DNA from: Chrysophaeum taylorii | Taxonomy: Eukaryota > Sar > Pelagophyceae > Pelagomonadales > Pelagomonadaceae | Direction of reading: 5' to 3' | Length of the DNA stretch: 64,000 nt | Assembly (NCBI GenBank): GCA_029834535.1 | Contig: JAQMWT010000324.1 | Coordinates: 1-64,000, forward strand | Shown here: positions 1,318 through 60,363 of the stretch, in pieces | How positions within the stretch are numbered: position 1 is the stretch's first letter | Layout: each line of letters opens with the position of its first letter | Notes under the pieces: generated by a model | Told to the model about the DNA's origin: nothing | What the model saw: only the letters and a program-made list of their open reading frames with translations | Database searches by the model: none | Program-made: the position numbers and the translations under genes

Positions 1318-1537
1318 GTATTTTCCTCTTTCGTTGCTCCACCCCTCGTTCTGTATTTTCACTCGTTGTTGCTCCTCTCGTTGCTCCCCTCCTCGTTCTG
1401 TATTTCGCCTATTCGTTGCTCCACTCCCCGTTGTGCATTTTCAGCTATTCGTTGATCCACTCCCCGTTCTACATTTTCTGCTATTCGTTGATCCACTCCC
1501 CGTTGTGCATTTTCACCTATTCGTTGATCCACTCCTC
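1318..1537 (+). repeat. 36-bp tandem repeat inside the retrotransposon
   Basis: About six imperfect copies of a unit of the form CCGTTSTRCATTTTC..CTATTCGTTGATCCACTCC. The last three copies are nearly identical at 36 bp and the earlier ones are more diverged. No coding role is seen; it lies between the gag remnant and the RT fragment. Confidence 0.8.
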
Positions 1538-1803
1538 ACATTGTGATTGTCGGTTTTGGTAAAACCAGCGAATCACGTTCCATCGCGCATTTCACCTGCC
1601 ACAACTAAGCTGTGCCTGTCAATTTTTCGCGTGCGCAGTTTTCGTGCTTCCTATGTGGTTGGATCGCTCATCTTCGGGATCCTGGACAGACGCTTCTTTG
1701 CTGTGTGATTTGTGGTTCTCCTTCACGCACTATCGCTTTTCGCCGCTTTTCTGACCTTTAAAATTCGGTTTTGCTATCGACGTGAATTCCGTGCTCAGCA
1801 CCC

Positions 1804-1868
1804 GCGACGCTATCTGCAATGTTCTTACGTGCCACTGCGACGCTATCTGCAACGTTCTTACGTGCCAC
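1804..1868 (+). repeat. 33-bp direct duplication
   Basis: GCGACGCTATCTGCAAYGTT followed by CTTACGTGCCA occurs twice in succession with one difference. This is a local slippage-type duplication in the retrotransposon interior. A second duplication of about 43 bp (CAAAGTCGAGCCAAMCRGAG) lies near 2630-2705. Confidence 0.75.
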
Positions 1869-3000
1869 AGCTGTTTTGCCATTGTCGCCAACTTCTACCG
1901 CAGTCTATTCGAGTATGACGAGCGAAGCTCGCCGCTTGCTCCTCCAACGTTGGCCCATATGGCAACTTCGTTCTTGCGAATGCGAAAACGGGCCACTTTC
2001 TTATCTGCCACCGCAGGCTGGCATACAGCAGGACGCGGTCGTGCCCATGGCAACTTGCTCGCGCCACAACAACCAAACACCCAACGTTCGCATCAACCCT
2101 GTTTACGCCTGTTTTGGATTCTGTCGACTCCGACCATCGTCATACCCTGGTCACCATGCAACCTATCTGCCCAAAGGCCATGTTCTCATCAGACGTCTGG
2201 TACACCGCCATCATATGTACCAGCTTGTGTTTCCGCTTTCTTTGCCCCGCTGCGATCCTCAGTGGCAACAATCGTCTAACGCACGTCATCCCAGGTACTT
2301 TTGTCGCTATTGTTCTTCAGACCTCGATTTTGCTGACAGTTTCACTTACCCGATTTCCTGCAATGTCAACCACCGAAGGAACTTCAACGTTGTTCTGACT
2401 TTCTCGAATCACGCTTCCAAGCTCTCGTCTATTGTTGCCCGATTGTCACCTGTTCTTCCGCTGTTCTTCCGCTGTTGCCCCCTTGTCCGCTGTTGCCCCC
2501 TTGCCCCCTGTGTTTGATGAGAATGCGCCGGTTTCACTGGGACTGATCACCCCATCACGTGAACCGACCATTCTACGAGCTCATGAACTCCGACGAACCA
2601 AAGAGAGAAAACAAAAAAAAAGTGCACAACAAAGTCGAGCCAACCAGAGCCGACAAAACAACAAGCATGCAAAACAAAGTCGAGCCAAACGGAGCCGACC
2701 GCGCAAAGTCGACAAAAAAGCGCACATTATTCAGAAACAAATGGAGAACCAACTCAAACCCTCAATACTGGCGTTTTATCACGCACTGTCGATTCTGTGT
2801 CATCTTGTCATTCCCTTCAATTCTGTGTCATCTTGTCCTTCCCTGTACGTTAATTATTCTAGCTTTCGTTTGTTAGTTCATTATGTCTTCCTTCCCCTCT
2901 GTCTCGCCCAGCCCATCCAAATCCTGCACGTCGGTTACAAGTCCTTGCCACAGAATATCATTCCCTCGGTCAGGTCGGTTGCTCGGATGTTGTTTGCGTT

Positions 3001-3320
3001 CCTTCTACTTTTTCTGGCACCATCTGCCCTTTGAAGTGGGTCCACCGCACGAAGTATGAATCTGGCCGCTTCAAATCGTACACTGCTCATCTCGTTGTCC
3101 GCGGTTACACCCAGGTTCACGGCATTGCTTACCACGACACGTACCGTCCTGTAGATGTCATCTCTGCTTTCATACAAGCCCCTGTCTGGCGTTGCTGTTC
3201 GCGACTGGGATTTGCATAAGTTGGATGTCAGCTCCGAGCTCCCATTGACGAAGAAGACATCTATGTCTGGCCACCCGCAGGTTATGCTCCTCGCCAACCC
3301 ACCGATGGTTTAAAAATAAT
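3001..3320 (+). pseudogene. Copia reverse transcriptase fragment (frameshifted)
   Basis: The segment KWVHRTKYESGRFKSYTAHL followed by VVRGYTQVHGIAYHDTYRPV matches the N-terminal part of copia RT (the KWVFKVK..YKARLVAKGFTQ..G.DY..TFSPV pattern). Next come VISAFIQA and, in other frames, DLHKLDVSS and then IDEEDIYVWPPAGYAPR, corresponding to the region normally read as DVKSAFL...EIYM.QPPGF. At least two frame changes and several stops are present, so this is a pseudogene fragment. Confidence 0.8.
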
Positions 3321-3439
3321 CATTTACACGCTCCGTCGCTCTTGGTATGGTTGCAAACAAGCTTGTCGCAATTGGTGGCTTTATTTGGAACGCTTCCTTC
3401 TCAATGATTGTGGCTTCGTCCGCGGATCTGGTGACACTT

Positions 3440-3814
3440 GCCATTACAAGCTCGTGCTCAATTCTACCGTACTTACTTGCTCGCTCTTCTTTTGAAGCTG
3501 AATTGCTTGCTCTTTACGCTGCCACTGCTGAGCTCTCTTGGCTTCTCAAACTTTTTGATGACTTCGATCTCCCTCGTCACACGGTCCCAATGTATGTCGA
3601 TAATAGCACCACCGTCACCCAAGTCCGTCTCCAATGTCTCACGCGCCGCACCCGCCATATTGATATTCGCTTTTACAGCACCGCCGAATATCATCGCAAC
3701 CACATCATTGATCTCGAACACATCACCCGCCTTGACAACCTTAGCGATATCTTCACCCGCCGTACGGAAGCTCCTTCCTTCCTCCGGCTTCGTGCTCGTT
3801 ACCTCACCTCGTGA
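3440..3814 (+). pseudogene. Copia RNase H fragment
   Basis: In one frame, SSFEAELLALYAATAELSWL, then MYVDNSTTVTQV, then RTRHIDIRFYSTAEYH and LDNLSDIFTR match the C-terminal RNase H of Ty1/copia polyproteins (S.S.AEY.A......E..WL; DN..A..L; ..K.KHIDIR.HFIRE; ...DIFTK). It is the best-preserved part of the element. The RT palm expected upstream is missing. Confidence 0.8.
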
Positions 3815-4003
3815 CTTCGCCCGATATCTCATGTCTCTTTCTGCCACAATGCCTCTCCTGACGTCTGTCTTCCTTCAAGCTTCTCCTCTGTAAGCGTCTC
3901 ACTTACCCCATTTTCCTTCTTCCTTTTCTTTCTTTTCCAGCACCTGTGTGAGGACCTCACTTACCCCTATTTTTTCCTTCTCTTTCTTTTCCAGCACCTG
4001 TTG

Positions 4004-4077
4004 TGTGAGGAAGCTATGACACTTACCCCTGCACCACGTCCCCATTATAGTTCTCACATCCCCATTTTCAGTTCTCA
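4004..4077 (+). repeat. 3' LTR (at least its 3' portion)
   Basis: This copy matches bases 1-67 and ends in TTCTCA at 4077. A start at TGTGAG (4004) would give a short inverted pair with the CTCACA that spans the end. The LTR may be longer, because the upstream pyrimidine-rich block TTCCTTCT.TTCTTTTCCAGCACCTG is itself duplicated (about 3905-3955 and 3962-4003). The polypurine tract was not identified. Confidence 0.6.
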
Positions 4078-4926
4078 CACATCCAGAGAGGCCGCGTCGA
4101 CCTTGGTCAATATTTCAAGGAGGTCGTCGTGGATGCGGCCGTTGGTCGCGACGAGCTCGCGCGTCGCAGCGGTAGAAGGCCGGCCCCGGGCGTCGGTGAC
4201 CCTGCCCCCCGCCTCGCGGACCAGGAGGGCGCCCGCCGCCGTATCCCAGGGGGCGAGGTCCGGCTCGAAATAGGCTGCACCCCGGCCGTCGGCGACGTAG
4301 GCAAGCATGAGGGCCGCGGAGCCCAAAAGTCGGAGGGTACGCACCCTCGGCGCGAGGGCAGCGATCCCCCGGAGCGAGGGGGCGAGCGATAAGGGGTTGG
4401 GGGGCGCTCCGGCGAAGACGATCGCGTCCTCTAAACGTTCGGCGGCAGAAACCGCGAGCGGTCGTCGGTTTTTTCGTGGCCCGCTGGTCACCGTCGCGCC
4501 GCGACCCCTGGCGCCGGCAAACAGCTCGTCGCGAAAAGGGTCATAAACGACGCCGGCCAAGGTTTCGCCCTCGCGCGCGTAGGCGATCGACACGACGCTC
4601 AGCGGTAACCCGTCCACGAAATTCGTCGTGCCGTCGATGGGGTCCACGACCCAGCAGTTGTCCAGGGGCTTCTCGACGCCACCTTCCTCCCCCAGGAAAT
4701 CGATCTCGGGACACCGCGACGCCAGCACCGACTGGATGAGGTCCTGGCTTGCGAGGTCCGTCGCCGTCAACAGGTCCTTCGCGTTCGCCTTCGTCGATGC
4801 GACGGCGCGCTGCTCGGGCCCGGCCTCCACGATCAACTGCCCGGCGGCGCGCGCGGCGGCCGAGGCGGCATCGACCACCGCCTCCAGCTGCATCGCTTCG
4901 CCGAGCATCAGCCACAGGAGCATCAT
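4075..4926 (-). CDS. Inositol monophosphatase-like phosphatase
   Basis: A 283-aa protein of the FIG/IMPase superfamily, of usual family length. These Mg2+-dependent enzymes hydrolyse inositol phosphates or related sugar and nucleotide phosphates. All metal-site motifs are visible: FLGEEGG (Glu), WVVDPIDGTTNF (motif A, two Asp and Thr) and APWDTAAGALL (motif B Asp). The upstream helix reads DLLTATDLASQD. The ATG at 4926 is chosen because family similarity begins just after it; the open frame runs on upstream without recognisable sequence. The N-terminus MMLLWLML is hydrophobic, so a targeting signal is possible. The TGA stop (4075-4077) is made of the last three bases of the adjacent retrotransposon LTR, so the native C-terminus may have been cut by the insertion. 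The exact substrate cannot be told. Confidence 0.88.
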   Translation of the reverse strand: MMLLWLMLGEAMQLEAVVDAASAAARAAGQLIVEAGPEQRAVASTKANAKDLLTATDLASQDLIQSVLASRCPEIDFLGEEGGVEKPLDNCWVVDPIDGTTNFVDGLPLSVVSIAYAREGETLAGVVYDPFRDELFAGARGRGATVTSGPRKNRRPLAVSAAERLEDAIVFAGAPPNPLSLAPSLRGIAALAPRVRTLRLLGSAALMLAYVADGRGAAYFEPDLAPWDTAAGALLVREAGGRVTDARGRPSTAATRELVATNGRIHDDLLEILTKVDAASLDV

Positions 4927-44719: not shown

Positions 44720-44907
44720 CGACGAGATGGGTGTCAGTCAAATCGCGGTCTCCGCGCCGCATGGCGACAGGCGCCAAATCTCGCCCGGCGCTCCTTCTCC
44801 GCGCTGCTCGTCTCTCGACCCCGTGACTTCTGAGCCCACGCGCCACGGCGCTAGGATTAGCCTACGCACCGTGCACTGAGATGGCCGATAGGTAGTTAGT
44901 TAGTTAG
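44657..44907 (+). repeat. Dispersed repeat, copy B (pair with 13731-14025)
   Basis: Same order of blocks as copy A: TTGGAAGCCGGAACGTTCGC, GTCAAATCGCGGTCTCCGCG, GGCGACAGGCGCCAAATCTC and a terminal TAGGTAGTTAGTTAG. It lacks the GGTCGACTGCTAAG block of copy A. It interrupts the purple-acid-phosphatase-like frame and ends next to the stop codon of the channel gene at 44896. Confidence 0.8.
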
Positions 44908-46092
44908 GTAGGTCGAGCGTTGCCGAGGTACGTACGCCCCCGACCCGAGATCCATTCTACCCCAGAGGAGGTAGATGAGACATACGTGGTAAGCGAACCA
45001 GCCGAGGAAAACAAGACCGTAGACGACCTTGTCTACCCAAAGGTATGGGTGCTTCAACAGCACGCTGTCAAAAACATTGACTAAAACGAGGACGATGACA
45101 ATGAGGGCGCACGCCTGCGCGTGCATACTCAGATACGTCGCGTAGGGTAGCTTGGGCATGTTCGATGAGACACTTGTCGAGAACGAAATCGTCGTAAAGA
45201 GTACCGTGACGGTGGTAGCGAGACGGGTCGAGAATTGCTCAGGCTCGACGAGAACGAGCGCAAAAGCGACGGTTGCGATTAGCGACTCCATCATCAAAAT
45301 GGTGGTCACGTAGTAACGCGGCTCGCGCTTGACCTTAATGTGGAATTCGACGCGTGGTTTTGATTGCTGCCCAGGCTGTTGGTCGATCTTCGTTGGCAGC
45401 CCAAGATCGAACTCGGGGCCACAGGTAAGCCAAGGGTCGAATTCAAGGGCAGGGTCGAGTTCCAGGGTCCCGTTCTGGTGCTGCTCGACCATGGCATTGG
45501 ACGCCTCTTCGTTGTGCTCATAGTATGGTATCTTCTCATCTTGATCTTCGATGCACAAGCCGTCTGGGTCATCAAAGTTCCCCCCAATTTGGAGAAAGTA
45601 CTCTTTGCGAAAGGGGAGCTTGTTGAGCCGATAGTCGAGGACGAAATCATGATCATCAAACGGGAAGTCACGCAAATCGAATTGGTGTTCCAAAGTCATG
45701 GCGACCTGCTCCGTGTAACACCATGCTCCGAGGTGCGGTTTGTAGATAATTTCAGCCGGACTCGTTACATCGAGCGTGGCGATGCGATTCGCAACGGTCG
45801 GAATTGGAACGAAACGTTTAACGTCGATCGGTAGTTCATCCACATACCAGCGTGTCTGCTCTAAACTGTCCATTTGACTGTTGATGTCGTCGAGGTTGAC
45901 TTTGGTTTCCTCGACGTCAGTGTTGTCACAACCGGTGTAATCGACGAATTTCCTCGTGAGCTCTTCGCATTCGAAATAAACGAAATACCGCCAACGCAGA
46001 TCGAAGCTATTGGTGAGGGGATTAATACAACGCAAGTTTTTAATGCGAACGAAGAGGAGACATGGGCGGCGCTCTTCATCACGCTCTGCCAT
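44896..46092 (-). CDS. Cys-loop/pentameric ligand-gated ion channel-like protein
   Basis: A 398-aa protein from ATG 46092 (MAERDEERRPCLLF); the upstream extension starts at TTG. The extracellular-type domain has FDLRWRYFVYFECEE (loop D/strand region), WYVDELPIDVKRFVPIPTV and HQFDLRDFPFDDHDFVLDYR, the signature FPFD segment of the Cys-loop superfamily, here without the two Cys. An acidic insert of about 60 residues follows. Four hydrophobic helices then appear: YYVTTILMMESLIATVAFAL (M1), STRLATTVTVLFTTISFSTS (M2), YLSMHAQACALIVIVLVLVN (M3) and VVYGLVFLGWFAYHVCLIYL (M4). No N-terminal signal peptide is evident, so an upstream exon is possible. Ligand and ion selectivity are unknown. Confidence 0.82.
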   Translation of the reverse strand: MAERDEERRPCLLFVRIKNLRCINPLTNSFDLRWRYFVYFECEELTRKFVDYTGCDNTDVEETKVNLDDINSQMDSLEQTRWYVDELPIDVKRFVPIPTVANRIATLDVTSPAEIIYKPHLGAWCYTEQVAMTLEHQFDLRDFPFDDHDFVLDYRLNKLPFRKEYFLQIGGNFDDPDGLCIEDQDEKIPYYEHNEEASNAMVEQHQNGTLELDPALEFDPWLTCGPEFDLGLPTKIDQQPGQQSKPRVEFHIKVKREPRYYVTTILMMESLIATVAFALVLVEPEQFSTRLATTVTVLFTTISFSTSVSSNMPKLPYATYLSMHAQACALIVIVLVLVNVFDSVLLKHPYLWVDKVVYGLVFLGWFAYHVCLIYLLWGRMDLGSGAYVPRQRSTYLTN

Positions 46093-46189
46093 TGACCCGT
46101 ATTTCTCGTGCGGCTGCACGGTGTCAAGGATTGCCACACGACCTTTATGTGGACGCGGATGTTTCGGCACTTTTTGCGGCAATCTAGGG

Positions 46190-46602
46190 TCAGCTCGTGT
46201 CTAAACCCTACTGCCCTCCAGCTTATTGCCGCACTGGCTCTTGACGCCCGCTTGCGCACGTGTGGCGGCTACGCACGAATTTGCGTGGACGACGGCGTCA
46301 TCTCAGGTTCACCTCGTGATGTTGTCAACGTTCTCTTGCAGTACGCCCGCGACATCCAAGCTAGCGGCGAGGAGCTCCGCCTCGACAAGTGCGTGGCGTT
46401 CTGTCCGGCGCTTGGCATAGGTCTCCTCGATCACCCCGATGTCCAACACCACGTCCAAGCTGTGCCGGACGGCACCCGCTCTCTTGCTGGCGGGATTGCT
46501 GGAACCAGCGCCGCCGTGGGAAGCCAGCGTGGTACGGAGCTCAGCGCCGAAGCCCGTCCCGCGGGGTCTCGAGTGCTCGCGCGATGCAGCAACCGGATGT
46601 GA
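46190..46602 (+). pseudogene. Reverse transcriptase palm fragment (non-LTR-like), plus strand
   Basis: In one frame, TALQLIAALALDARLRTCGG, then YARICVDDGVISGSPRDVVN, LLQYARDIQ and LRLDKCVAFCP form an RT palm: the VDDG box with its flanking strands and the L..KC motif. It continues VPDGTRSLAGGIAGTSAAVG, comparable to the GIPVVACGLVTYGVPIGS segment encoded on the other strand nearby. The fragment ends at 46602. The N-terminal RT half is missing because the channel gene begins at 46092. Confidence 0.6.
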
Positions 46603-48639: not shown

Positions 48640-49638
48640 ATGGACGTCATCGACAAGCTTCGGACTGTACAACCGCGACTCCGAGCTGGACGAAAAGAGC
48701 GGATTCCGCTCGAGCATCGCGCCGCGTCCCTCCACTTTCTACGCGACTGGTATTCGGCGCTCGAGAAGGAGCTTGGAGACGATGCAGCAAACAAGGTCGA
48801 TTCCTTCCAGATCGTCGGGGAGAAGAGCGTCGAGACGGACGAATGGTTCGCCGGATCTCCAGAGAAGAAGCTCCCGTCCGCGAAATCTCCGCCGTGGTCG
48901 ATCCGATTTCTGTCCGGCGGAACTGAGATAAGCCTCGTCGAGACTTTGCTTCTGGCGGCAGAAGTTACCGGGGATCGGTCCTTTACGCACGACGCCAACG
49001 GCCGGCCGTACTTTGGATCGACGACACACTTTTTGAGTCACACTTGGACCTCGAATTTTTCGACGATGCTCGCGGCCGTCGCTCAGCAGGATCCTCCCGA
49101 GGACAACTACTTTTGGGTCGACATGTTCTCCGTCGCGCAAAATGATTTGGTCCCTGGAGCCAAGGCCAATAAGAAGGAAGATCTCAAACGAATGGACGAG
49201 GGTTGGCCCATCCGGACGAGCGGCGCTACGTGGATGTTGGCCGAGCCGTGGAAGAAGCCGGCAGCTTTTGGGCGCGTGTGGTGCCTCAACGAGTGTTTCT
49301 TGACGGTGCAATGCGAGAACAAGTTCGAGTTAATCATGTCACCCATCGAGTCTCGGGACTTCGAGAAGTCCCTCGTCGAGTACTTCGACTCACTCGTGAA
49401 GGTCGTGTCTGAAATAGACTTGCAACGTGCCACGGCCACGAAGGAGAAGGACAAGACGCGTATTATCAAGGCCCTCCGGCAATCCGGCATTGGTTTCGTG
49501 AGGGTGAACCAAATCGTCATCGGCCAGTTGAGGGAATGGTTTGCGAAGACCGGAAGGGCTGCCCTCGACCGACTTCCGCCCGGGGAGCGAGAGGTTTCGC
49601 CGCTTATCAACGTGCTCGCGCTGTTGCTGATAGATCAG
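48640..49638 (+). other. Exon 1: TIR-like domain (SHxW...WCxxE type)
   Basis: 333 residues. THFLSHTW aligns with the first strand of TIR domains, [11 protein letters not shown] with the second, and [12 protein letters not shown] with the conserved S.WC..EL helix. A TIR NADase would need a catalytic Glu, and the Glu of CLNEC is a candidate. The domain is diverged and could instead be a scaffold. The exon ends LLLIDQ at a phase-0 donor, in register with the TPR exons. Confidence 0.6.
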
Positions 49639-52600
49639 GTCGGTAAGAGATGCACTCTGGCACACGCATTTCCGTGGATAACAAAATGACGTGTGCGCCG
49701 CCAACACGTAGGCGAAGCACGATGAAGCTCGTGGTCTCTTGGAAGGAGCGCTGGACGCTCGCACGAAGCAGTTCACTCCGGAACACGTTGCCACAGTTCT
49801 CTACAACCTTGCTGTGTTGTTAAGCAACCAGGTGAGCTGTTGAGCTTCCAAGTTGGCTGTTGAGGTTCCCAGGTGGCCCTGAGACGCGACACAGGGCAAG
49901 CTCGAAGAAGCCGAGCCGTTGTATCGCCGCGTCATCGAGATCTTCGAGGGAAATCTCGGCGGGGCTCACGCGTCATTGGCCATCGCGCTAGACAATCTTG
50001 GTAACTTGTTGCGCAACCAGGTTGGATTGTTGAGGTTCCAAGTGTCACTGAGACTCGACACAGGGTAAACACGACGAGGCCAGACCGCTCTACGAGCGCG
50101 CGCTCAAAGTCCGCCGGGAGACGCTCGGCGACAGCCACCCGGCTGTCGCTAAGTCACTAAGCAACCTCGGGGTGTTGTTGAGCCACCAGGTTGGCTGTTG
50201 AGTTTCCATGTGGTCCCGAGACGCGGCACAGGGCAAGCTCGAAGAAGCCGAGCCATTGTATCGCCGCGTCATCGAGATCCTCGAGGAATCATTCGGCGGG
50301 GCCCACCCGTCAGTGGCAACCGCACTCAACGAGCTTGGTAACTTGTTGCGCAACCAGGTGGGATTTTTGAGGTTCCAAGTGTCACTGAGACGCGACACAG
50401 GGTAAACACGACGAGGCCAGACCGCTCTACGAGCGCGCGCTCAAAGTCCGCCGGGAGACGCTTGGCGACAGCCACCCGGCTGTCGCCGAGTCGCTCAACA
50501 ACCTGGCTGGGTTGTTGAGCCACCAGGTTGGCTGTTGAGTTTCCATGTGGTCCTGAGACGCGGCACAGGGCAAGCTCGAAGAAGCCGAGCCGTTGTATCG
50601 CCGCGTCATCGAGATCCTCGAGGAATCATTCGGCGGGGTCCACCCGTCAGTGGCGACCGCACTCAACGAGCTTGGTAACTTGTTGCGCAACCAGGTTGGA
50701 TTGTTGAGGTTCCAAGTGTCACTGAGACGCGACACAGGGTAAACACGACGAGGCCAAACCGCTCTACGAGCGCGCGCTCAAAGTCCACCGGGAGACGCTT
50801 GGCGACAGCCACCCGGCTGTCGCCGAGTCGCTCAACAACCTGGCTGGGTTGTTGAGCCACCAGGTTGGCTGTTGAGTTTCCATGTGGTCCTGAGACGCGG
50901 CACAGGGCAAGCTCGAAGAAGCCGAGCCGTTGTATCGCCGCGTCATCGAGATCCTCGAGGAATCATTCGGCGGGGTCCACCCGTCAGTGGCGACCGCACT
51001 CAACGAGCTTGGTAACTTGTTGCGCAACCAGGTTGGATTGTTGAGGTTCCAAGTGTCACTGAGACGCGACACAGGGTAAACACGACGAGGCCAAACCGCT
51101 CTACGAGCGCGCGCTCAAAGTCCACCGGGAGACGCTTGGCGACAGCCACCCGGCTGTCGCCGAGTCGCTCAACAACCTGGCTGGGTTGTTGAGCCACCAG
51201 GTTGGCTGTTGAGTTTCCATGTGGTCCTGAGACGCGGCACAGGGCAAGCTCGAAGAAGCCAAGCCGTTGTATCGCCGCGTCATCGAGATCTTCGAGGGAA
51301 GTTTCGGCGGGGCTCACCTGTCAGTGGCCATCGCGCTAGACAGCCTTGGTAACTTGTTGTGCAACCAGGTTGGATTGTTGAGGTTCCAAGTGTCACTGAG
51401 ACGCGACACAGGGTAAACACGACGAGGCCGAGTCACTGTATCGCCGCGCCATCGAAATTGGCAAGGTCGCGCTTGGCGACGACCACCCGCTTCTCGCCCA
51501 ATGGCACAGCCACCTCGGTATGTTGTTGGCAGACCAGGTGGGTTCTTAAGGCTCCAAGCGGCCGTGAGACACGACGCAGGGCAGATACGACGAGGCTAAA
51601 CAGCTCCACGATCGCTCGCTCGAAATTTTCCAACAGGCGCCAGGCGTCGGCGACAGCCATCCGGTTGTCACAGCTCAGCTCAACAACATCGCTAATTTGT
51701 TCCAAACCCAGGTTTATTGTTGAGCTTCCTAGCGCCACTGAGAAGCGACGCAGGGGAAATACGACGAGGCGCTGAAGCTTCGCAAGCGCTGTCTCGAAAT
51801 AGTGAGGCAGACGCTGGGCGAAGAGCATCAGCAGTATGCTGTTTCGCTCAACGACTATGCTCTGTTGTTGAGCACGCAGGTGGATTGTTGAGGTTCCAGG
51901 AGATGGCCGTGAGACACGACGCAGGGCAAGCTCGAAGAGGCCGAGTCGTTGTATCGCCGCGCCATCGAGATCTACGAGAAAATATCTAGCGGGGCCCACC
52001 CGTCAATGGCCACCGCGCTCAACAATCTCGTTACGTTGTTGCGCAACCAGGTGCGGTTTTGAGCTTCATAGGTGGCACTGAGGCGCGACGCAGGGTAAAG
52101 ACGACGAGGCCAGGCCGCTCTACAATCGCTTGCTTGAAGTCCGCCAAGCGGTGCTTGAAGCCAGCTACCCGGCTGTCGCCGAGTCGTTTAAAAGCTTCGC
52201 CCTGTTGCTGAGCAATCAGGTGCGTTGTTGACTTCCCCTTTTGTCATGTGTTCTTTCATAACAATGTATGTATGTTTTGTGCTCAAACCAAACGGACTGT
52301 TTCCTGTGTGCTCATTTGCCTCGCTTGGTTGTTGAGCGCTTTTATTACATTTTAGCTTCAAGTGGCAATGAGTCGCGGAACAGGGCAATTATAAGGAGGC
52401 CGCGTTGCTCTACGATCGCTCTCTTAATATTCGCGGAGAGGCGCAATTGCGGGAATATCTTCATCAAGAGGTCTTCAAACAAGCTCTTCGTGGGGGCAGC
52501 TTACCATGGCGGCGTTCACGCCTGATGGTTGTTGGAGAGGGACGCGTGGGGAAAACTTGTCTCGTTCGGCATCTCAAAGGGGAAGACGTCGACTCGAATC

Positions 52601-55600
52601 AGCAGAGCACCTGTGGTGCTGACACGTCAGACGTTGTTGTGCCGGACTTTGTGGGGCTACGGGACCAGGGGATTGACCAAACTGCGCTTGAGACAAGAAA
52701 TGATTTGTGGTTGGCGCCTGATGAGGCAGGAACGGAAGCCAGCGCAGCTCTCGCCACTGGCCACTTGAATTATTACCCCAGCACCTCGAGTTCTAAAATA
52801 CCGCCATCACATCTGGAGTCGAAGGACAAGGAGGAAGACTCTACGTTATCTGCTGGGTTGATGGGATCTCGCACGGCTTCGGGTCTTCGTCAGGGTGCTG
52901 CAGCCATCGAAGCGGCCTCGAGGCCTGCCTCGCCTTCCTCAAACGACTCTCGACAGGATGTTGCCACCGATACTGGCACAAAGACCAAATTCGAACGCCA
53001 TCGGTTATCATCAAATACTGATGCATCCGGTAATGCAGGGTCCATGTTTCTGGGATCATGGACTGGAGATGTGAGGCCAGAGTACGACGAGGACGCGATT
53101 CTGCGCGGGTCTGACCATGCGCGCAAGCTTCGGATAAGCATCTGGGATTATGGCGGGTATAATTGGAGCGTAACTTCCCCAATGTGTGATTTCTACACAT
53201 TTATGTACTATTGTTGTGTCTCATCGATAAATTGTTTGTCTACCCTTCCCTGCTCACCAGCTTGAACTCAGGCAAGAAGTATTCCACGTTGTGCACAACA
53301 AGTTTCTCTCGCGAAAAGGAGTTTACCTCGTAGTTTTCAAGGTGATCGACTGGCTCGGTACGGAAAGCATCGGGGGTTTCGCCCGCGAGCAGCTTGTCTT
53401 TTGGCTTAATTCGATTTCGATTCATGCGAGTGGTGCACCGGTGCTCTTGGTCGGTACGTACTGCTGCGACTCTAAAGTCACGGATGCTGACCTCTCGAGG
53501 ATTTCGGGCGAGATGGATGATTTGGTTGCGAAAGCTAATTTGAAGAGTAGCCTGAAGCGCTGTGAGAAGACTGGTCGTGTGTTTTACGAGGTCGACAATC
53601 TACACATGAAGCAAGACAACCCTGTCTTCAGGGACCTGCGCATAGCAATTGAAGACGCGATCTGCAGCGACAGTGACCGGTACATCCACACAGAGGTGCC
53701 TCTCGCGTGGCTGCAAGTGTGTGACGAGCTGCAAAAGGCCCATGTCGAAGATGATCTATGTTTCGCTGGGATCGGCGCGTGTTTCGAGCTGCTGCAAAGT
53801 TGCTACAAGGGAATGGGGAAATCACTCGTTGACAAGGATGAAGTCTACAGCATGCTCTCGCTTTTTGATGAGCTCGGTGTTATGACATATTTTGGCTCGG
53901 ACTATGGCTCGTTGGCTGGTAGTGTCGTTATCTTGGACCCGCAATGGATTGTCGATATGTTCACTGCCGTGATCCGCAACTTCGAGTGGCACAGATTGCG
54001 GCGCGACGTCGCAGCTTGGCTAGGAGGGCTCGGAAAAAGCAATACATACGCGGCTTCCGTTGGTGAAGTGTTGTGGCACAACTTGACGCGAACCGGCATC
54101 CTGGATTACCGTCTCCTAGAACACCTCTGGCCAGACAACGAGTGTCATGCTGATGTCAAGCTGACACCCAAGGACGTGCGAGGCGCAGTGTTGGAGATCA
54201 TGCAGAGTCTTAAACTCGTGGTAAAGTGCGCCCCCATTGATGCCCTGAGCGACCCAGGGCTAAAGTCGGAGCTCGTCCCACAGTCACATAAAGCCAAGGT
54301 ACACTCTGCAGCAACACAAGACAAGTACTTGGTACCGAGCATGTTTGAACTCGAACCTTCACAAAGCCCCTTAACGAAAGACCATTATGACATGCAGGCG
54401 GCGCTTCAGTTCGAACATTATCTGCCCGACGCCCTCTTTAGCCGCTTGGTAGCATCGCTGATTCCAGATTGTGAACAAAAATTTGAAGAAGCTGTTGCAC
54501 CCGGGGACCTATTTCGGACGGCGGTGCGCCTCAGCTTTGACAACCGGTCCACGATAGTCACGCTCATGGAAGCACGTACAACGGGTGGACAGCAGAGTAT
54601 CTTCATTGGGGTGTGCTTTGAAGGGGACGAGGGCCACAAGGAAGGCTACAAAGCGAAGGGCGAAATGCTCGTGAGATGGGTGCGTGCAGCGCTTGACGGC
54701 GTTTTGGCGGCTTTCTATGCCGGTTCAGGAAGCTCAAAGTCCTCGTCGATTCCTCAAATCCTTGAATATGGATGCGTCGTGGACGTTGACGCGCCCTTTG
54801 CTGCTAATAATCTTATCGCCGATCAAAAGTCTTCTGTTTACTTGGGAGACAGCGATGGACGCCGCGCTGCTCCCCCTAGCGAGGAGTGTCGGGACGACAG
54901 GAGCATAGTGGACGAAATCAACATGCGAGAGTTGCGGTTGTGGCTCGAGGATGTGGTTGGCATCCCTTCGAAGAGTGCAGATGACGTAGTTGAAGCGATC
55001 TGGAAACATGATAGTTCCCTGTGTTCAATGGACGCCCTGCATGATCTTCACCTCGAGTGCTGTCGTCAAGAGCTGGACAGCTGCGACAACGACAGAGACG
55101 AGTGGTGGTGCCGAGAGCTATGCGACGCGCAAATCCAAAAGTACGTTCGAAGGAAAATTGGCACGGAGATTAGGTCATGGAACAAACGCGAGGTGCGCGT
55201 ACCAATTCTTGCGTTCCATGTCAAGTCAGGACATGACGATGTTGATTCCAAGATTCTCAAGACACAACGGGAAGCACTCGTGAAAGGATTACTGCAACAT
55301 TCCCGGGACGTACTTCGGCCGAAGCTGACCTTGGTAGATCTTAAAACTGGAATATCAATCGCCAACTTCCAGCATGCGCTCGACTGGCGGTCTCAGAATA
55401 AAGGGAAAGGAAACTTAGAATTAGTGCATATTGCCGCGCACAACTCTCGCGAGTCTAGCTTCTTCGATGACTTTCAGGTTAGGCACCTTCGTGAACTCGA
55501 GGTGAAGCCAAACTGCGTGATCCTCAACTCGTGTTCATCGTTCAAGGTCGGGGAGCGACTAATCCATACCGATTACCAAGAGTGCAAACACCGCTGGGTT

Positions 55601-57064
55601 GTGGCCTGGGACGCTGATGTGACGGTCGACGAAGCTGCAGCCTTTACCGAGGGATTTTACATGAGATTCGTAGGTAAGTATCCAAAGGATGATGATCTCC
55701 GGGATTCCACGAAGACAGGCCGCGGCTTTGCGACTGTTAACGCAAGTTACCGAATCAGCGACCCTGACAATCGATATGTCGCTTTATACTTCAGCGGCCT
55801 ACATTACATGAAGTCTGTGAAAATAAATCCACCCAAAGATGGAAAACCATATGGGAAAGTCGTCCTGCTCCACTGTCGCCTCAACGAGAGATTTCTCGTG
55901 TGGCAAGACACTGCACAGCCCAGCCCTTCACTCTCGCAGCACGAAGCCGGTTCATGCGCGATGACAACTGCGCGTTCGGTGCCTTCGGATGACTTCGTGC
56001 GACGGTTCACCCGCAGCGAAGATCTCGAACCAGGCCCGCAAGTCGAGCTGAAGCCGTACTACGCGCGCTTGTTTTTTGGTCTCGGGCCGTTGGAAAAATA
56101 CCATGGTCACCGACCTCCTTTGCCAGAGGCTGACGACTGGAAAAAGATGCCTCAGGACCACCCTCCAGTCCTCTGCGTGGTCACGACTGCTGATAGCGAG
56201 CATGAGGCCGTGTTGGCTCGCCTTGAACCGGCCTCTGGTCATGAAGTAGTGCTCCAAATCGTGTGCGAGTGCATGCCGATGCTTGTGGGAAAACTCGGCA
56301 ATTATGAGACCGCTCTGCTCCAGACGCACATGGGGACCAACAAAACACACAAAGCCCTAAGCCGGGTCCTACCACTTATGCCATCTGTGAGAGTTGTCAT
56401 GGCCATTGGGTTCGGCTACGGCTTACAGCCCGCTTTGGGGAATGCTCCTCGCAACGGGCACATGGTCGGTGATGTGATGGTGTCGGCCAAGTGCGTCGAC
56501 ATGGCGCACTACAAGGCGTCAGGCGAAGCGATCAAACCTCGCGGCAACATAACGTCCGTGATGGATACCATCGCGAATGTCATGACCAAACCTGTGAGAG
56601 ATGCGTGGACTCGGCATCTTGAGTGGGAAAGTGAGGAAAGACCGCGCCCGCCTAGAGTGTATTTCGGGACCTACCTGTCGTTGCCTGTTTTATTTGATAA
56701 CGCTGAACACGCTCATCCATTTGTCGAGGCGGTGAGTTATCTCAAGCCGATTGGCGGTGACATGGAGCTCTTTCAAATAGTCGAGGCTGTCGACGAGCTC
56801 GAGCACCAAAAAATAGCCTGGCTTGCGATCAAATCGATTTCCGACTTTGGTGGCTTAATAAAGAAAACCAAGGACGGTCAACCACTGGCTGCTGCAACGG
56901 CCGCTGATTTTGCCAGATTTTTCTTGTCGATTCCGGGCGTGCTCGATCGACTCCTCGGTTCTCAACCGCCAGGTCTACCGGCGTCAGATCAAGAACCCCT
57001 GCCGGAACAGAGCCTCCACGGATCGAGACTTGACCGACCTCAAGTTCGCGCTGTTCGTCGGTGA
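48640..57064 (+). CDS. NLR-like ROCO protein: TIR-like / TPR / Roc-COR / CHAT / PNP nucleosidase
   Basis: I reconstruct 18 exons: 48640-49638, 49712-49831, 49895-50020, 50064-50189, 50232-50357, 50401-50526, 50569-50694, 50738-50863, 50906-51031, 51075-51200, 51243-51368, 51412-51537, 51580-51711, 51754-51879, 51925-52050, 52094-52219, 52384-53156, 53272-57064. That is 7455 nt, 2484 aa, all GT-AG. Domains: TIR-like (FLSHTW 131-136, YFWVD to 161, RVWCLNE 212-218); 15.5 kinesin-light-chain-type TPRs (about 334-985); Roc (P-loop GEGRVGKT 1014-1021; WDYGGQE, joined across the last intron; G4-like LLVGTYCCD); COR (about 1380-1700); a possible SAM-like helix set (about 1770-1815); CHAT (His1944, Cys1975); PNP/UDP phosphorylase-like (about 2185-2460; [15 protein letters not shown], Glu2386, Asp2412). 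I infer a cytosolic sensor-switch-effector protein. A 3' ankyrin segment follows in broken frames. A TATA-like TTATATCAAAAAA lies about 55 bp upstream. Confidence 0.85.
49712..52219 (+). repeat. One-exon-per-repeat TPR array, 15 exons
   Basis: Each exon encodes one kinesin-light-chain-type TPR starting GK.(D/E)EA..LY.R and ending NLL..Q: the first is 40 aa, one is 44 aa (51580-51711) and the rest are 42 aa. Introns within the array are 42-45 nt, apart from 63 nt after the first exon. All are phase 0 and begin GT(T/G)GG or similar. Five consecutive two-exon units starting at 49895, 50232, 50569, 50906 and 51243 are each exactly 337 bp including introns. Units 3 and 4 look identical, unit 2 nearly so, and units 1 and 5 are more diverged. 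Confidence 0.9.
52501..54100 (+). other. Roc-COR GTPase module
   Basis: [20 protein letters not shown] is the P-loop strand. A long Ser-rich insert separates it from [11 protein letters not shown], completed to [20 protein letters not shown] across the 115-nt intron (53157-53271), then [16 protein letters not shown] (G4 region) and the COR signature [15 protein letters not shown] sequence with [23 protein letters not shown] proteins use this pair as a dimerising GTPase switch. The Roc insert is unusually long (about 180 residues). Confidence 0.85.
55195..55800 (+). other. CHAT protease-like domain
   Basis: [16 protein letters not shown] supplies the His (codon 55439-55441) and [15 protein letters not shown] the Cys (codon 55532-55534), 31 residues apart. 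[20 protein letters not shown] then GFYMRFV and [11 protein letters not shown] follow, matching the CHAT order H, C, (V)..W...V.D..A..F...FY, ..A. CHAT domains are caspase-like Cys proteases used as effectors in bacterial and eukaryotic STAND proteins. The catalytic dyad appears intact. Confidence 0.75.
56160..56985 (+). other. PNP/UDP phosphorylase-like nucleosidase domain
   Basis: [73 protein letters not shown] and [13 protein letters not shown] follow the family order: N-terminal strand, G.G.G phosphate region, GDV.VS strand, D/E-M-E purine/ribose site, catalytic Asp in SD. Such domains end fungal, coral and bacterial STAND-type proteins, and some bacterial immune relatives cleave ATP. Glu2386 and Asp2412 are retained, so activity is plausible. 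Confidence 0.75.
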
Positions 57065-57629
57065 CATTGAGGGCGTCAGACAGATCCATAATCGGAAACG
57101 TGCTCTGCTCACGAAGTCGTTTAGCATAAAGCGCGAGGGAAAGTTCTTGAGAAAAATGCAAGCCATCCATTTTGCCAAGCTTGATTGGTGACCTCGTCAT
57201 GGTGCGATTCCTGGTCGAACATTGCGGTATTCCCCACAAGAACGCGATTCGTGGGGATACGCTGCTATCCATGTCGCGGCTTTCGAGGATCATCTTCCTG
57301 TTATCAGGTGCTTTATCGAGGAGCAAGAACAGTCCCCCAACATCCGCACGATACTGCAATCGAATGACCAGCTTGGGAAAACACCGCTCGCGGTCGCTGC
57401 GTGGAGTGGCTCGATCGAAGTCGTAAAATGGCTTTGCGCTTTATGCGACGTTGACCCCGATGCTGACCACGGCAGCGGGTTCAAGGCGCTTGACTACGCA
57501 ACCGACGCAGGTCCCGAAACACCCGACACGATTGACATCCAATGTTATCTTAAGAACCCACGGGATTCTAACGTGAAATCAACTAAACCCCGCGCCAAGA
57601 TAGCTCCTCTTTATTTGGAATTCGATTGA
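57010..57629 (+). pseudogene. Ankyrin-repeat tail in three broken frames
   Basis: [20 protein letters not shown] continues to MQAIHFAKL in one frame. IGDLVMVRFLVEHCGIPHK follows in a second, and RDSWGYAAIHVAAFEDHLPV with GKTPLAVAAWSGSIEVVKWL and FKALDYATDAG in a third, ending at a stop at 57629. Together these make about three to four ankyrin repeats that would follow the PNP domain. The frame switches (near 57000, 57180 and 57250) lack convincing splice sites, so I read this as a decaying or mis-sequenced C-terminus of the ROCO gene. Confidence 0.65.
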
Positions 57630-58045: not shown

Positions 58046-58164
58046 AAAACCGCATTTCCCATGTTTGACAACTTAACCATTTTCGTTGGGAGCGGCGTTC
58101 CACGCAATTGAAGGTGATCACGATGTATTCGCTTTCCAGTGTTGTTGATAAAGGAAGCAACAAA

Positions 58165-58370
58165 CCCAGGGTTCGCGTTCGCTTCGAGTTCGAGTTTGCT
58201 ACTGGTTCGCGTTCGCTGCCGGTTCGCGTTCGATTAGTCGGTTCGCGTTCGCGGCGAGTTCGGGTTCGCTACGGGTTCACGTTTGCGGCGAGTTCGCGTT
58301 CGCTCGGGTTCGCGTTTGCGGCGAGTTCTCGTTCGCGGCGAGTTCGCGTTCGCTGCCTGCCCGCATTCGC
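58165..58370 (+). repeat. Left subterminal array (GTTCGCG motif)
   Basis: More than ten copies of (G)GTTCGCGTTCG, GAGTTCGCGTTCG and GAGTTCGGGTTCG at 10-20 bp spacing. The same motifs fill the right array. Confidence 0.85.
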
Positions 58371-58760
58371 GATTGTCTTCCCTCTGCACTAAGTCTTACT
58401 CACTTTTTGATAGTACAACTGCGTTGCCGCAGCCCGCAATTTGTGGACGAGGCAGTTTTGAAAGGTCGACTGCTAAGAGGGGAGGGGTTGGTTACAGAGT
58501 TAACTCTAAGGATAAGGCGGGGCTGGCGAAGAAGGAAGGGGGGGGGGATCAAAGCCGGAGCGTTGAGTGAGGCGAGAGCAGAGCGAGGGGAGGGGGGTTG
58601 GGAGTAAAGGGCGGGGGGGTAGTAGGGAGGGTGGTGGTGGTGAGAGAAGCTGCGGCATGTCCTATAGTCTTCGACGTTCCGAGACACGGCACCAGGAGTG
58701 CTTGCGAGAAGAACAAGGCGGTCATATATATCGTGTTGTTTTGATGCCTCTCGGTCGTCG

Positions 58761-59876
58761 TCAGAAGTCGTTGTCGTTCTCTTCCTCCGCATCTTCGCCG
58801 TCATCATCATCATCGACGTCAGTTTCTTCGCCTGGAAAATCATGATCGCCTAGTGTGTTTGGCGTCTTCTTGTAGATTTCCCACAAGCGGTCATAATCAA
58901 CGTCGCCATGCACGTACTTCCAGAAGGGGTAGTTGTGTTTGATGACGACAAACAAACCAAGAATTAATTATCGGCGATAGACTTGAAAACTGAGCGCGCT
59001 TTTCGTCAGTTTCCCAAATCGGAATACACGTTCCTCGTGCGCCTCAGTTTCAGTCGCGCTGCCTTTACTTTCGAACATGAGCGTCGCAGTCGGGTAATCT
59101 GCCCGGATCTTGGGATCAGCGTACATATGAAGCAGGTCCATCTCGCTTGCCTCGAATGCCATCTTCTTTGACGAAACGTGACCATTCTGTCCTGGGCATA
59201 GCGAGGAACTTCGCCTTCTGCGTTGTGTGCTTGCGAAGCACTCGCGGCCTTCGAGTTGTCGCTGTCGTCACCTAAATCTAGCAGATCGTCGTCGTCGTCG
59301 TCGTCGTTGTCGTCACTATGGCTCGTTTTGCGTCGCTTTATTGGGGAAGGCAGCGTTGGATCCGCTGCTTACATCAAGTCCAACGCGCGCGCTGCCTCTC
59401 TCCATGTACTGTCGAACCGAGTCTCTTGACTAAAGTAGCCTGCGCAACAGGGAGCACTTTTTCAATATTGATCGAAGGGCTCAGCATCATCAGGTTGCCG
59501 ACACCACCGTGCAGCGCCTCTCCGGTTCTTTTATGCAAATATCTCGAGCAGTTGAGACCAATCCATCGCATTCGCCCCATTCCACCTCATGGAACTTGCG
59601 CTTGTTCACGAGGCCCGTCTTGCGCATCGGTACCTGAAGTGTGTCTCGTTTAAGCTTGTTGAGTGGGCAGACGGTGAAGGCGCGAACCATATCGACGACG
59701 ACCGGGACGTCGCCTTCGGTTTGGAGTGTCAGCATATGCAGAGGCTTCATGAAGGCTTCCACTTGAGCACTACATCGCCAGTCTCTTGACGACATCGCAG
59801 GGACTCGGGGCTCTGATGGCGGATTCGAGCTGAATGATGATGGCTTAAATGGCTTCTCCTCGTCATCCTCGGACAC
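58761..59876 (-). pseudogene. hAT-family transposase, C-terminal half, broken frames
   Basis: Reading 5' to 3' on the minus strand: SSRDWRCSAQVEAFMKPLHM with LTLQTEGDVPVVVDMVRAFT (the W.....L.PF...T..LQ segment), then YLHKRTGEALHGGVGNLMML SPSINIEK in another frame, then MYADPKIRADYPTATLMFES and TETEAHEERVFRFGKLTKSA with FVVIKHNYPFWKYV. The ERVFRFGK block corresponds to the ERVFS.AG motif of the hAT dimerisation domain and the last block to the following helix. At least three frame breaks; an acidic Asp/Glu tail ends the frame. Confidence 0.6.
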
Positions 59877-59994
59877 GTCACAAGATTTTGTGGACGAAAA
59901 TTAGTATACCCCGTTGATACGTGCGACGTCACATAGTTACGGTGTTGAAAACGGCCATCGCTGCGTGTGTGCCTTCGAGTGCCTGCTGGCTGCG

Positions 59995-60165
59995 CGGTGA
60001 GTTCGCGTTCGCGACGGGTTCGCGTTCGCGGCGGTTCGGGTTCGCTACGGGTTCGCGTTCGGGGCGAGTTCGGGTTCGCTACTGGTTCGCGTTCGCGGCG
60101 AGTTCGCGTTCGCGCGCTGTTGGGATGCGAACCACAGCGAACGCGGACCGAGTTCGCGCGTCGAA
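59995..60165 (+). repeat. Right subterminal array (GTTCGCG motif)
   Basis: Repeated GAGTTCGCGTTCGCG, GGGTTCGCGTTCG and GGTTCGGGTTCGCTAC, mostly in the same orientation as the left array, with a few reversed copies (CGAACGCGAACC) at the outer edge. Confidence 0.85.
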
Positions 60166-60363
60166 CGCGAACCATGTCGTGGTTCGTTGCTTCCTTTAGT
60201 TGTTGATCGGCACTTACCATCACCAGGGTGCACTGGCGGCCCCATCCCATGCTCCCACGCTGGCACGCCTCCACCTTCACGCGCCATCTGCCTCAACTAC
60301 GGTCCCGATCACCTCAACTAAGTCCTCATCATGCGGAGGTAGTACTCTATAGAGTAATAAGTG

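Follow-up and report, generated by a model that had tools for sequence, protein, structure and literature searches.

Can a single algal gene combine a repeat sensor, a GTPase switch and candidate effector enzymes in one chain? The question is raised by a locus of Chrysophaeum taylorii (Pelagophyceae), found in a 64,000-nucleotide stretch of DNA (hereafter called the window) that represents bases 1-64000 of contig JAQMWT010000324.1 (C324). The genome matches this species, in agreement with the algal host proposed in an initial annotation of the window. Our preferred reading, in which we have modest confidence, is that one chimeric gene at this locus codes for an intracellular receptor of NLR-like type, with a ROCO GTPase substituting for the NACHT/NB-ARC ATPase, with CHAT and PNP domains as two candidate effectors and an immune or cell-death role.

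Gene structure

We rebuilt the gene model independently of the initial annotation, which had described one 2484-residue chain with TPR and Roc-COR modules and CHAT and PNP candidates, and we obtained the same model. The proposed receptor gene comprises 18 exons on the forward strand, from an ATG at 48640 to a stop codon at 57064, and encodes 2484 residues with no internal stop. All 17 introns have GT...AG splice sites, 16 of them are in phase 0 and 13 are 42-45 nucleotides (nt) long. Exon 18 sits within a stop-to-stop frame of 1277 residues, where the other two frames contain 51 and 72 stops. The features of the gene and its immediate surroundings are the following.

48640..49638, + strand: exon 1, N-terminal domain (NTD, residues 1-333), an open ATG frame, TIR/HET-like by motif only
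49712..52219, + strand: exons 2-16, 15 TPR units, one unit of 40-44 residues per phase-0 exon, introns of 42-63 nt
52384..53156, + strand: exon 17, opening segment of a TPR unit, conserved pre-Roc segment, Roc P-loop GEGRVGKT, insert and WDYGG; Roc over the cut-off
53272..54280, + strand: first part of exon 18, end of Roc (QE, VGTYCCD) and COR-A (29.6 bits, cut-off 35.3); two paralogues match at 86% and 61%
54923..55100, + strand: SAM-like helical region separating COR from CHAT, identified by eye; no Pfam family for 54890-55300
55265..55909, + strand: candidate CHAT caspase-like domain, His in VHIAAH (1939-1944) and Cys in ILNSCSS (1971-1977)
56177..56902, + strand: PNP/nucleosidase domain, Glu in GGDMELF (2382-2388) and Asp in SISDFGG (2409-2415)
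56957..57064, + strand: C-terminal tail of the open frame up to the stop codon, unmatched in the paralogue, which aligns only as far as residue 1228 of 1263
57021..57629, + strand: ankyrin repeats in frames 0, 1 and 0 after the PNP frame 2; Ank_2 E 1.3e-16 on 57192-57629, segments before 57192 identified by eye

Genome searches covered 70.8 Mb in 697 contigs; the published C. taylorii assembly, obtained from long reads and accompanied by PacBio (SRR22085545) and RNA-seq data (SRR22085759), is described as 71 Mbp in 702 contigs (PMC10366177). No annotated GenBank counterpart of the receptor gene was found in protein-database searches. Exon 18 yielded no relative at E<=1e-3 among the 7993 candidates sharing most words with it (lengths of about 695-2210), nor did the full-length model, for which residues 973-2484 were scored, among 7980 candidates (lengths of about 1366-4347). 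A scan of NCBIfam returned 0 families.

Nucleotide switch

The Roc domain scores 35.8 bits with Pfam PF08477 in the exon-17 frame (cut-off 27), and its P-loop, switch II and a G4-like motif are present. The COR assignment is supported, yet weaker than those of Roc, PNP and TPR. In a genome search with COR-A the window scored 25.3 bits, and two of the six matches, on contigs C529 and C322, passed the cut-off; COR-B was matched, at E 0.046, only in a paralogue. NACHT and NB-ARC ATPases gave no match at E<=1 in the five window pieces scanned, and they occur elsewhere in the genome on other frames. The chain brings together a repeat sensor, a nucleotide switch and effector candidates (TPR, Roc and PNP/CHAT), which makes it NLR-like by its workings, not by membership of the NLR/STAND class.

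Candidate effector domains

Scanned alone, the PNP domain passes the cut-off of PNP_UDP_1 (PF01048; 26.0 bits versus 25.1, E 7.2e-6), and the profile matches all six aligned relatives at E<=1. Glu2386 and Asp2412, which we take to be residues of the nucleoside site, are kept in the MEL and SDFGG motifs. The PNP domain with retained Glu and Asp that had been described initially is therefore confirmed for the domain taken as a separate piece. In another PNP copy, at C324:64118-64981, the conserved Glu of GGDMEL is replaced by Gly. PADLOC gave one weak match in the PNP part, PDC-M60C (E 0.002). The PNP query matched no PDB sequence, and PNP and NTD profiles gave only chance-like weak matches to PDB (E 0.22 to 0.97). 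Searches based on two short patterns each, which distant relatives may escape, revealed no confirmed relatives of PNP or ROC-COR in prokaryote genomes, or of PNP, NTD or CHAT in viral contigs.

The CHAT assignment is likewise supported, yet weaker, since the domain is divergent. All three aligned ROCO-CHATs retain the His and Cys motifs, and one of three relatives matches PF12770 at E 0.067. An hhalign comparison of a profile of three ROCO-CHATs with four CHATs of the genome gave 94.5% over 86 columns and paired His with His (VHIAAH and VLHFAMH) and Cys with Cys (ILNSCSS and VFLNCCES), as against 0.1, 0.1 and 0.3% for three unrelated control pairs. Three of the in-genome CHATs used are over the Pfam cut-off (C25, E 4.5e-43; C84, 1.0e-6; C658, 4.5e-5), and the fourth, from the first ROCO of C324, is 0.6 bit below it (E 4.8e-5). 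An earlier alignment that included one poor member, left out of the one reported here, gave 92.0% over 51 columns. The CHAT query matched no PDB sequence. CHAT matches of equal score were found at C25:69915-70691 and C521:69905-70681, and each of these contigs also has an MLKL_N match of equal score near 18.6 kb. C25 and C521 are probably a duplicated contig or a haplotype pair.

N-terminal domain and TPR array

The NTD harbours the motifs FLSHTW (131-136) and RVWCLNE (212-218) and a further block at 157-167. These blocks presumably resemble three HET/TIR blocks, and WCLNE is similar to the WCL-x-E motif of plant TIR domains. The TIR profile gave no match in the NTD in the Pfam scan, and the HET profile scored E 0.13-0.15, below its cut-off; the TIR-like domain of the initial annotation is thus not borne out, nor is a TIR NADase, and a TIR/HET-like label for the NTD remains unproven. 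When the genome was searched for HET at E<=1, there were 0 matches, and the control was silent as well. HET has been proposed to be TIR-related, and homologues are reported in stramenopiles, in the cited part of PMC4986451.

NTD copies were identified at five other loci, four on C609 at 83-88% and a partial one on C555 at 71%. The latter, retrieved by the NTD profile search, belongs to the GenBank-named CTAYLR_004038 (273 residues), which follows the same exon logic as the receptor gene. Compared with the four C609 copies, the window NTD gives ratios of nonsynonymous to synonymous substitution rates (Ka/Ks) of 0.28-0.39. The C609 copies belong to four tandem NTD-TPR genes (C609:20854-40587) that differ in their numbers of TPRs, with NTDs 83-88% identical, and by eye the cluster is flanked on both sides by retroelement-like frames.

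A TPR array had been proposed initially, and its 15 one-unit exons and a TPR_12 match over the cut-off (33.7 bits versus 30.1, in the one TPR exon scanned) substantiate it. The array consists in part of near-identical 337-bp exon pairs. Because exons two apart are 98-100% identical in 4 of 12 comparisons (38-92% in the others), part of the array must be a recent copy.

Related genes and module reuse

Including the window itself, exon 18 has 19 matches in the genome. The full ROC-COR-CHAT-PNP series occurs at two places, the window and C324:99960-103526 (69%). The latter is part of a series of consecutive long frames (C324:96159-103589) that encode ROCO-CHAT and, further downstream, a second ROCO-CHAT-PNP, the two being separated by a helical stretch resembling MLKL_N (E 3.2e-5 on a fragment, below the cut-off). 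At C165:43531-49218, NACHT, WD40 and a Roc P-loop share one frame of 1298 residues, so that what seems to be a single gene has two switch domains. Downstream on C165, ROC-COR (59%) and CHAT (37%) are found in other frames, and the exon-18 genome search gave no PNP match there. The unity of the C324:100-kb and C165 genes is presumed from the agreement of order and strand rather than from a spliced model.

Since ROC-COR-CHAT(-PNP) recurs at C324:100-103.5 kb and behind NACHT-WD40 at C165, ROC-COR-CHAT has the look of a cassette that was attached to three distinct modules upstream of it. We tentatively propose, at somewhat less than even confidence, that in this pelagophyte lineage the cassette, with or without PNP, is a signalling-and-killing unit exchangeable between sensors (the TPR array, NACHT-WD40, and another ROCO-CHAT with an MLKL-like four-helix stretch), with ROCO GTPases as an NLR-type switch and a protease and a nucleotide-depleting enzyme in one receptor.

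The candidate effector domains also occur on other backbones. A 3017-residue open frame at C324:74830-83880 has the composition of a giant PNP-NLR with a kinase (MBF2-like, PNP, LRR, protein kinase, NACHT and ankyrin); PNP, LRR and NACHT were below their Pfam cut-offs in one scan (PNP and NACHT just below), and NACHT was over the cut-off in another. At C28:10024-10893, a PNP 35% identical to that of the window is fused to an NPHP3_N-type ATPase in a frame of 1855 residues. PNP also occurs with LRR on C398, and CHAT with an nSTAND1/NACHT frame on C84. The genome contains 20 MLKL_N-like stretches at E<=0.1, one of them in a 3406-residue NACHT frame (C309).

Other features were noted by eye around the receptor gene. 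Frames resembling ligand-gated channels, with no Pfam family over the cut-off, are present on the reverse strand at window positions 44899-46200 and, in a related form, at L023:4539-5882 (position 118 of L023 is C324:64118). Low-complexity repeats of the GTTCGCGTTCG type occupy window positions 58150-60200.

Selection and module histories

Selection on the receptor gene is purifying. Between the window and the C324:100-kb copy, Ka/Ks is 0.43 over 1209 codons (bootstrap 0.36-0.50), with values of 0.38 for the end of ROC and COR-A, 0.46 for CHAT and 0.24 (0.16-0.33) for PNP. Identity between the two paralogues is a mosaic, with 95-97% at the nucleotide level for the initial 150 residues encoded by exon 18 and 62-72% over PNP, where third positions are 35-50% identical. 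The PNP at 102 kb is closest to that at 75 kb (81%), not to that of the window (61%). Given these PNP relationships and the mosaic identity, the modules seem to have separate histories, as under exchange or gene conversion. TPR exon duplication and mosaic identity are as in fast-changing receptor genes.

One receptor, two genes or a decaying gene

Several results weigh against the reading of a single functional receptor. At the level of domains, a scan of the complete exon-18 frame leaves PNP below its cut-off (21.3 bits versus 25.1), which it passes only as a separate piece. COR-A is also below its cut-off (29.6 bits versus 35.3, E 7.6e-7), and of the Roc-COR pair initially annotated the Roc part thus stands over the Pfam threshold whereas the COR-A part does not. 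The window CHAT piece has no match to Pfam PF12770 at E up to 10; the CHAT with an intact His/Cys pair that had been described therefore holds for its motifs and its hhalign relationship but not for a Pfam match. AlphaFold2 models had mean predicted local distance difference test scores of 36 for CHAT-PNP as a single sequence and 45 for the NTD with five relatives, and are uninformative on the folds. A gasdermin-like substrate gave 0 matches at E<=0.1, in a weak search whose control was found in 1 of 14 genomes, with none over the cut-off.

At the level of the locus, the five other NTD loci show no ROCO, and none of the 67 Roc matches listed for the genome is on C609 or C555. No ROCO was found in the 1000 bases inspected for the last TPR-side exon of each of the four C609 genes; these exons lead into an Ala-rich tail, with a stop codon visible in two of the four stretches, and the annotated C555 protein ends after its TPRs. 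As NTD-TPR and ROCO occur apart elsewhere in the genome, two separately occurring module types have therefore been joined here, and the present function of the joined gene is a proposal.

These observations could also reflect two genes, or separate transcripts from one locus, namely an NTD-TPR gene of the C609 type followed by a ROCO-CHAT-PNP gene. Such an arrangement would be in keeping with the Roc-free NTD-TPR loci (four on C609 and the annotated 273-residue C555 protein) and with the presence of ROCO-CHAT(-PNP) behind other upstream modules. We nevertheless find it distinctly unlikely, because exon 17 encodes a TPR start and the Roc P-loop within a single open frame: behind a TPR-like acceptor (...CAG/GGC AAT TAT AAG GAG GCC), the TPR start runs stop-free into the P-loop. 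The pre-Roc segment in between is common to the three loci compared, being also present at C324:99.4 kb and on C165 (REFHRKFLCQALDRASVPWRRARLMVVGQGRVGKT), where its upstream neighbours differ (a 4-helix-like stretch and WD40, respectively). The earliest Met of exon 17, in RLM, falls inside this conserved segment, so that a ROCO gene on its own would either lack conserved residues or require an extra upstream exon.

The abundance of repeats at the locus would be compatible with an assembly chimera at the TPR/Roc junction, which we consider very improbable, as the junction is in frame with a matching acceptor and C324, of 165,927 bp, belongs to a published contig set described as obtained from long reads (PMC10366177).

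The region downstream of PNP also counts against an intact receptor, as its ankyrin tail is split across shifting frames. We looked for an intron that would connect PNP with the ankyrins among GT-AG pairs 35-160 nt apart with donors at 56930-57062, and the main ankyrin frame was never reached. Four pairs entered part of the frame-1 ankyrin segment via non-consensus sites, then exited the ankyrin frame. The ankyrin segments may be the disrupted remains of an earlier C-terminus, or their frame shifts may stem from assembly indels. The locus might accordingly be that of a decaying receptor gene, a once functional chain that is now a pseudogene, as would fit the ankyrin-like segments, which occupy three successive frames and for which no read-through intron was found, and the broken PNP copies found elsewhere on C324, at 92.1-93.0 kb (in two frames) and 104.6-105.4 kb, one of them with a TAG. 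This appears unlikely in view of the 2484 stop-free residues, the GT-AG sites of 17 of 17 introns, the conserved catalytic motifs and Ka/Ks values well under 1 in PNP and CHAT, a pairwise measure with which a recent loss would be compatible.

Comparison with known systems

Stramenopile ROCO proteins are among the closest known parallels to a single chimeric receptor gene. In brown algae, LRR-ROC-COR is the sole reported arrangement, with one LRR per exon and proposed immune roles (Teng et al. 2024, PMC11378527). As described in that paper, these proteins resemble the product of the window gene as stramenopile ROCOs with one sensor repeat per exon, the exons being shuffled in the brown-algal genes; COR was found there by HMM in only 18 of 111 and inserts within Roc are reported, as in the window, and group 3 carries a C-terminal peptidase domain. 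The window gene differs from them by its NTD and TPRs upstream and its CHAT and PNP domains downstream; the terms CHAT, PNP and phosphorylase have 0 occurrences in the main text of PMC11378527. A TPR-ROCO-TIR protein of Chondrus crispus mentioned there similarly has TPR and ROCO in one chain, together with TIR; TIR is written last and CHAT and PNP are unmentioned in the passage concerned, so that it is set apart by description, not by sequence.

The PNP_UDP NLRs of fungi and animals (PNP-NACHT with TPR, ANK or WD40), in the account of PMC4986451, share with the window gene the association of PNP, repeats and an NTPase switch in combinatorial domain arrangements, but they are described with an ATPase switch and an N-terminal effector, whereas the window has a ROCO GTPase and a C-terminal effector. 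Bacterial AP-GTPase-COR conflict proteins, as presented in PMC8195603 and PMC7159879, similarly combine a Roc-COR switch, repeats and variable effectors, and the class includes PNPase, TIR and caspase effectors. They are prokaryotic, however, the effector described on LRR-GTPase-COR is GT4, and a chain with CHAT, PNP and COR is not part of these descriptions; ROCO appears once in each of the two papers, in the reference list, as far as their available text goes. Detocs shares with the window only a PNP domain as a candidate nucleotide-cleaving effector; it is a defensive three-gene two-component cassette, without ROCO, TPR array or CHAT as described, while the window encodes a single eukaryotic chain (PMC11249213, in the passages cited). 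The TPR-CHAT of Craspase (PMC9729208) and fungal CHAT NLRs (PMC12881547) link CHAT to TPR or NLR sensors, as in the window, and Roc-COR and PNP do not figure in the descriptions cited.

The initial annotation knew of no described protein with all of these domains on a ROCO core. Consistently, we found no joint mention of ROCO and "CHAT domain" in the open PMC literature, a search that leaves room for prokaryotic ROCO-CHAT fusions, and no relevant report on ROCO and nucleoside phosphorylase, mostly judged by title. The words caspase, CHAT, TIR, TPR and phosphorylase are absent from the Roco review PMC6337361. Thus, the parts are known, and we could not find a description of their combination, which occurs in a genome that uses them on ROCO and NACHT backbones.

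Proposed mechanism and significance

In the families concerned, TPR arrays serve to bind ligands or partners, Roc-COR works as a dimer switch that depends on the bound nucleotide, and CHAT is a caspase-like protease. On this basis, we infer the following biochemical and immune steps for the receptor. The TPR array, remade through exon duplication, would sense a ligand, upon which Roc-COR would shift its nucleotide state or dimer arrangement and thereby activate the C-terminal effectors. CHAT would act as a cysteine protease and the PNP-type enzyme would remove the base of an adenine nucleotide or nucleoside; together, their activities would lead to cell shutdown or death. The NTD might be a third effector or an adaptor. 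There are precedents for such activities in the cited accounts: the PNP effector of Detocs cleaves ATP into adenine and ribose-5'-triphosphate (PMC11249213), and a TPR-bearing CHAT protease activates a fungal gasdermin (PMC12881547).

The enzyme-like domains could instead have scaffold or metabolic functions, with CHAT as a pseudoprotease and PNP as a methylthioadenosine/S-adenosylhomocysteine (MTA/SAH) nucleosidase or a nucleoside sensor, in a ROCO protein devoted to stress or development. The window CHAT is divergent, the PNP_UDP domains of Podospora NLRs are predicted to be MTA/SAH nucleosidases (in the part of PMC4986451 cited), and brown-algal ROCOs respond to other stresses too, as reported in the passages of PMC11378527 used here. 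We consider such functions improbable, as the His, Cys, Glu and Asp motifs are retained and as PNP and CHAT also occur on NACHT/STAND frames of the same genome (C28, C324:75 kb and C84), an observation that equally sustains their initial proposal as effector candidates.

To our knowledge, ROCO proteins (the LRRK2 family) have no settled ancestral role. If an NLR-like receptor function is correct, a ROCO would be linked in one chain with established immune effectors and would serve, within this genome, in place of or alongside NACHT modules, and a single receptor would carry two effector enzymes. Candidate nucleotide-cleaving PNP effectors would then extend to a photosynthetic stramenopile, and the role of Roc-COR as an immune switch would become directly testable through the GTP dependence of the protease or nucleosidase activity.

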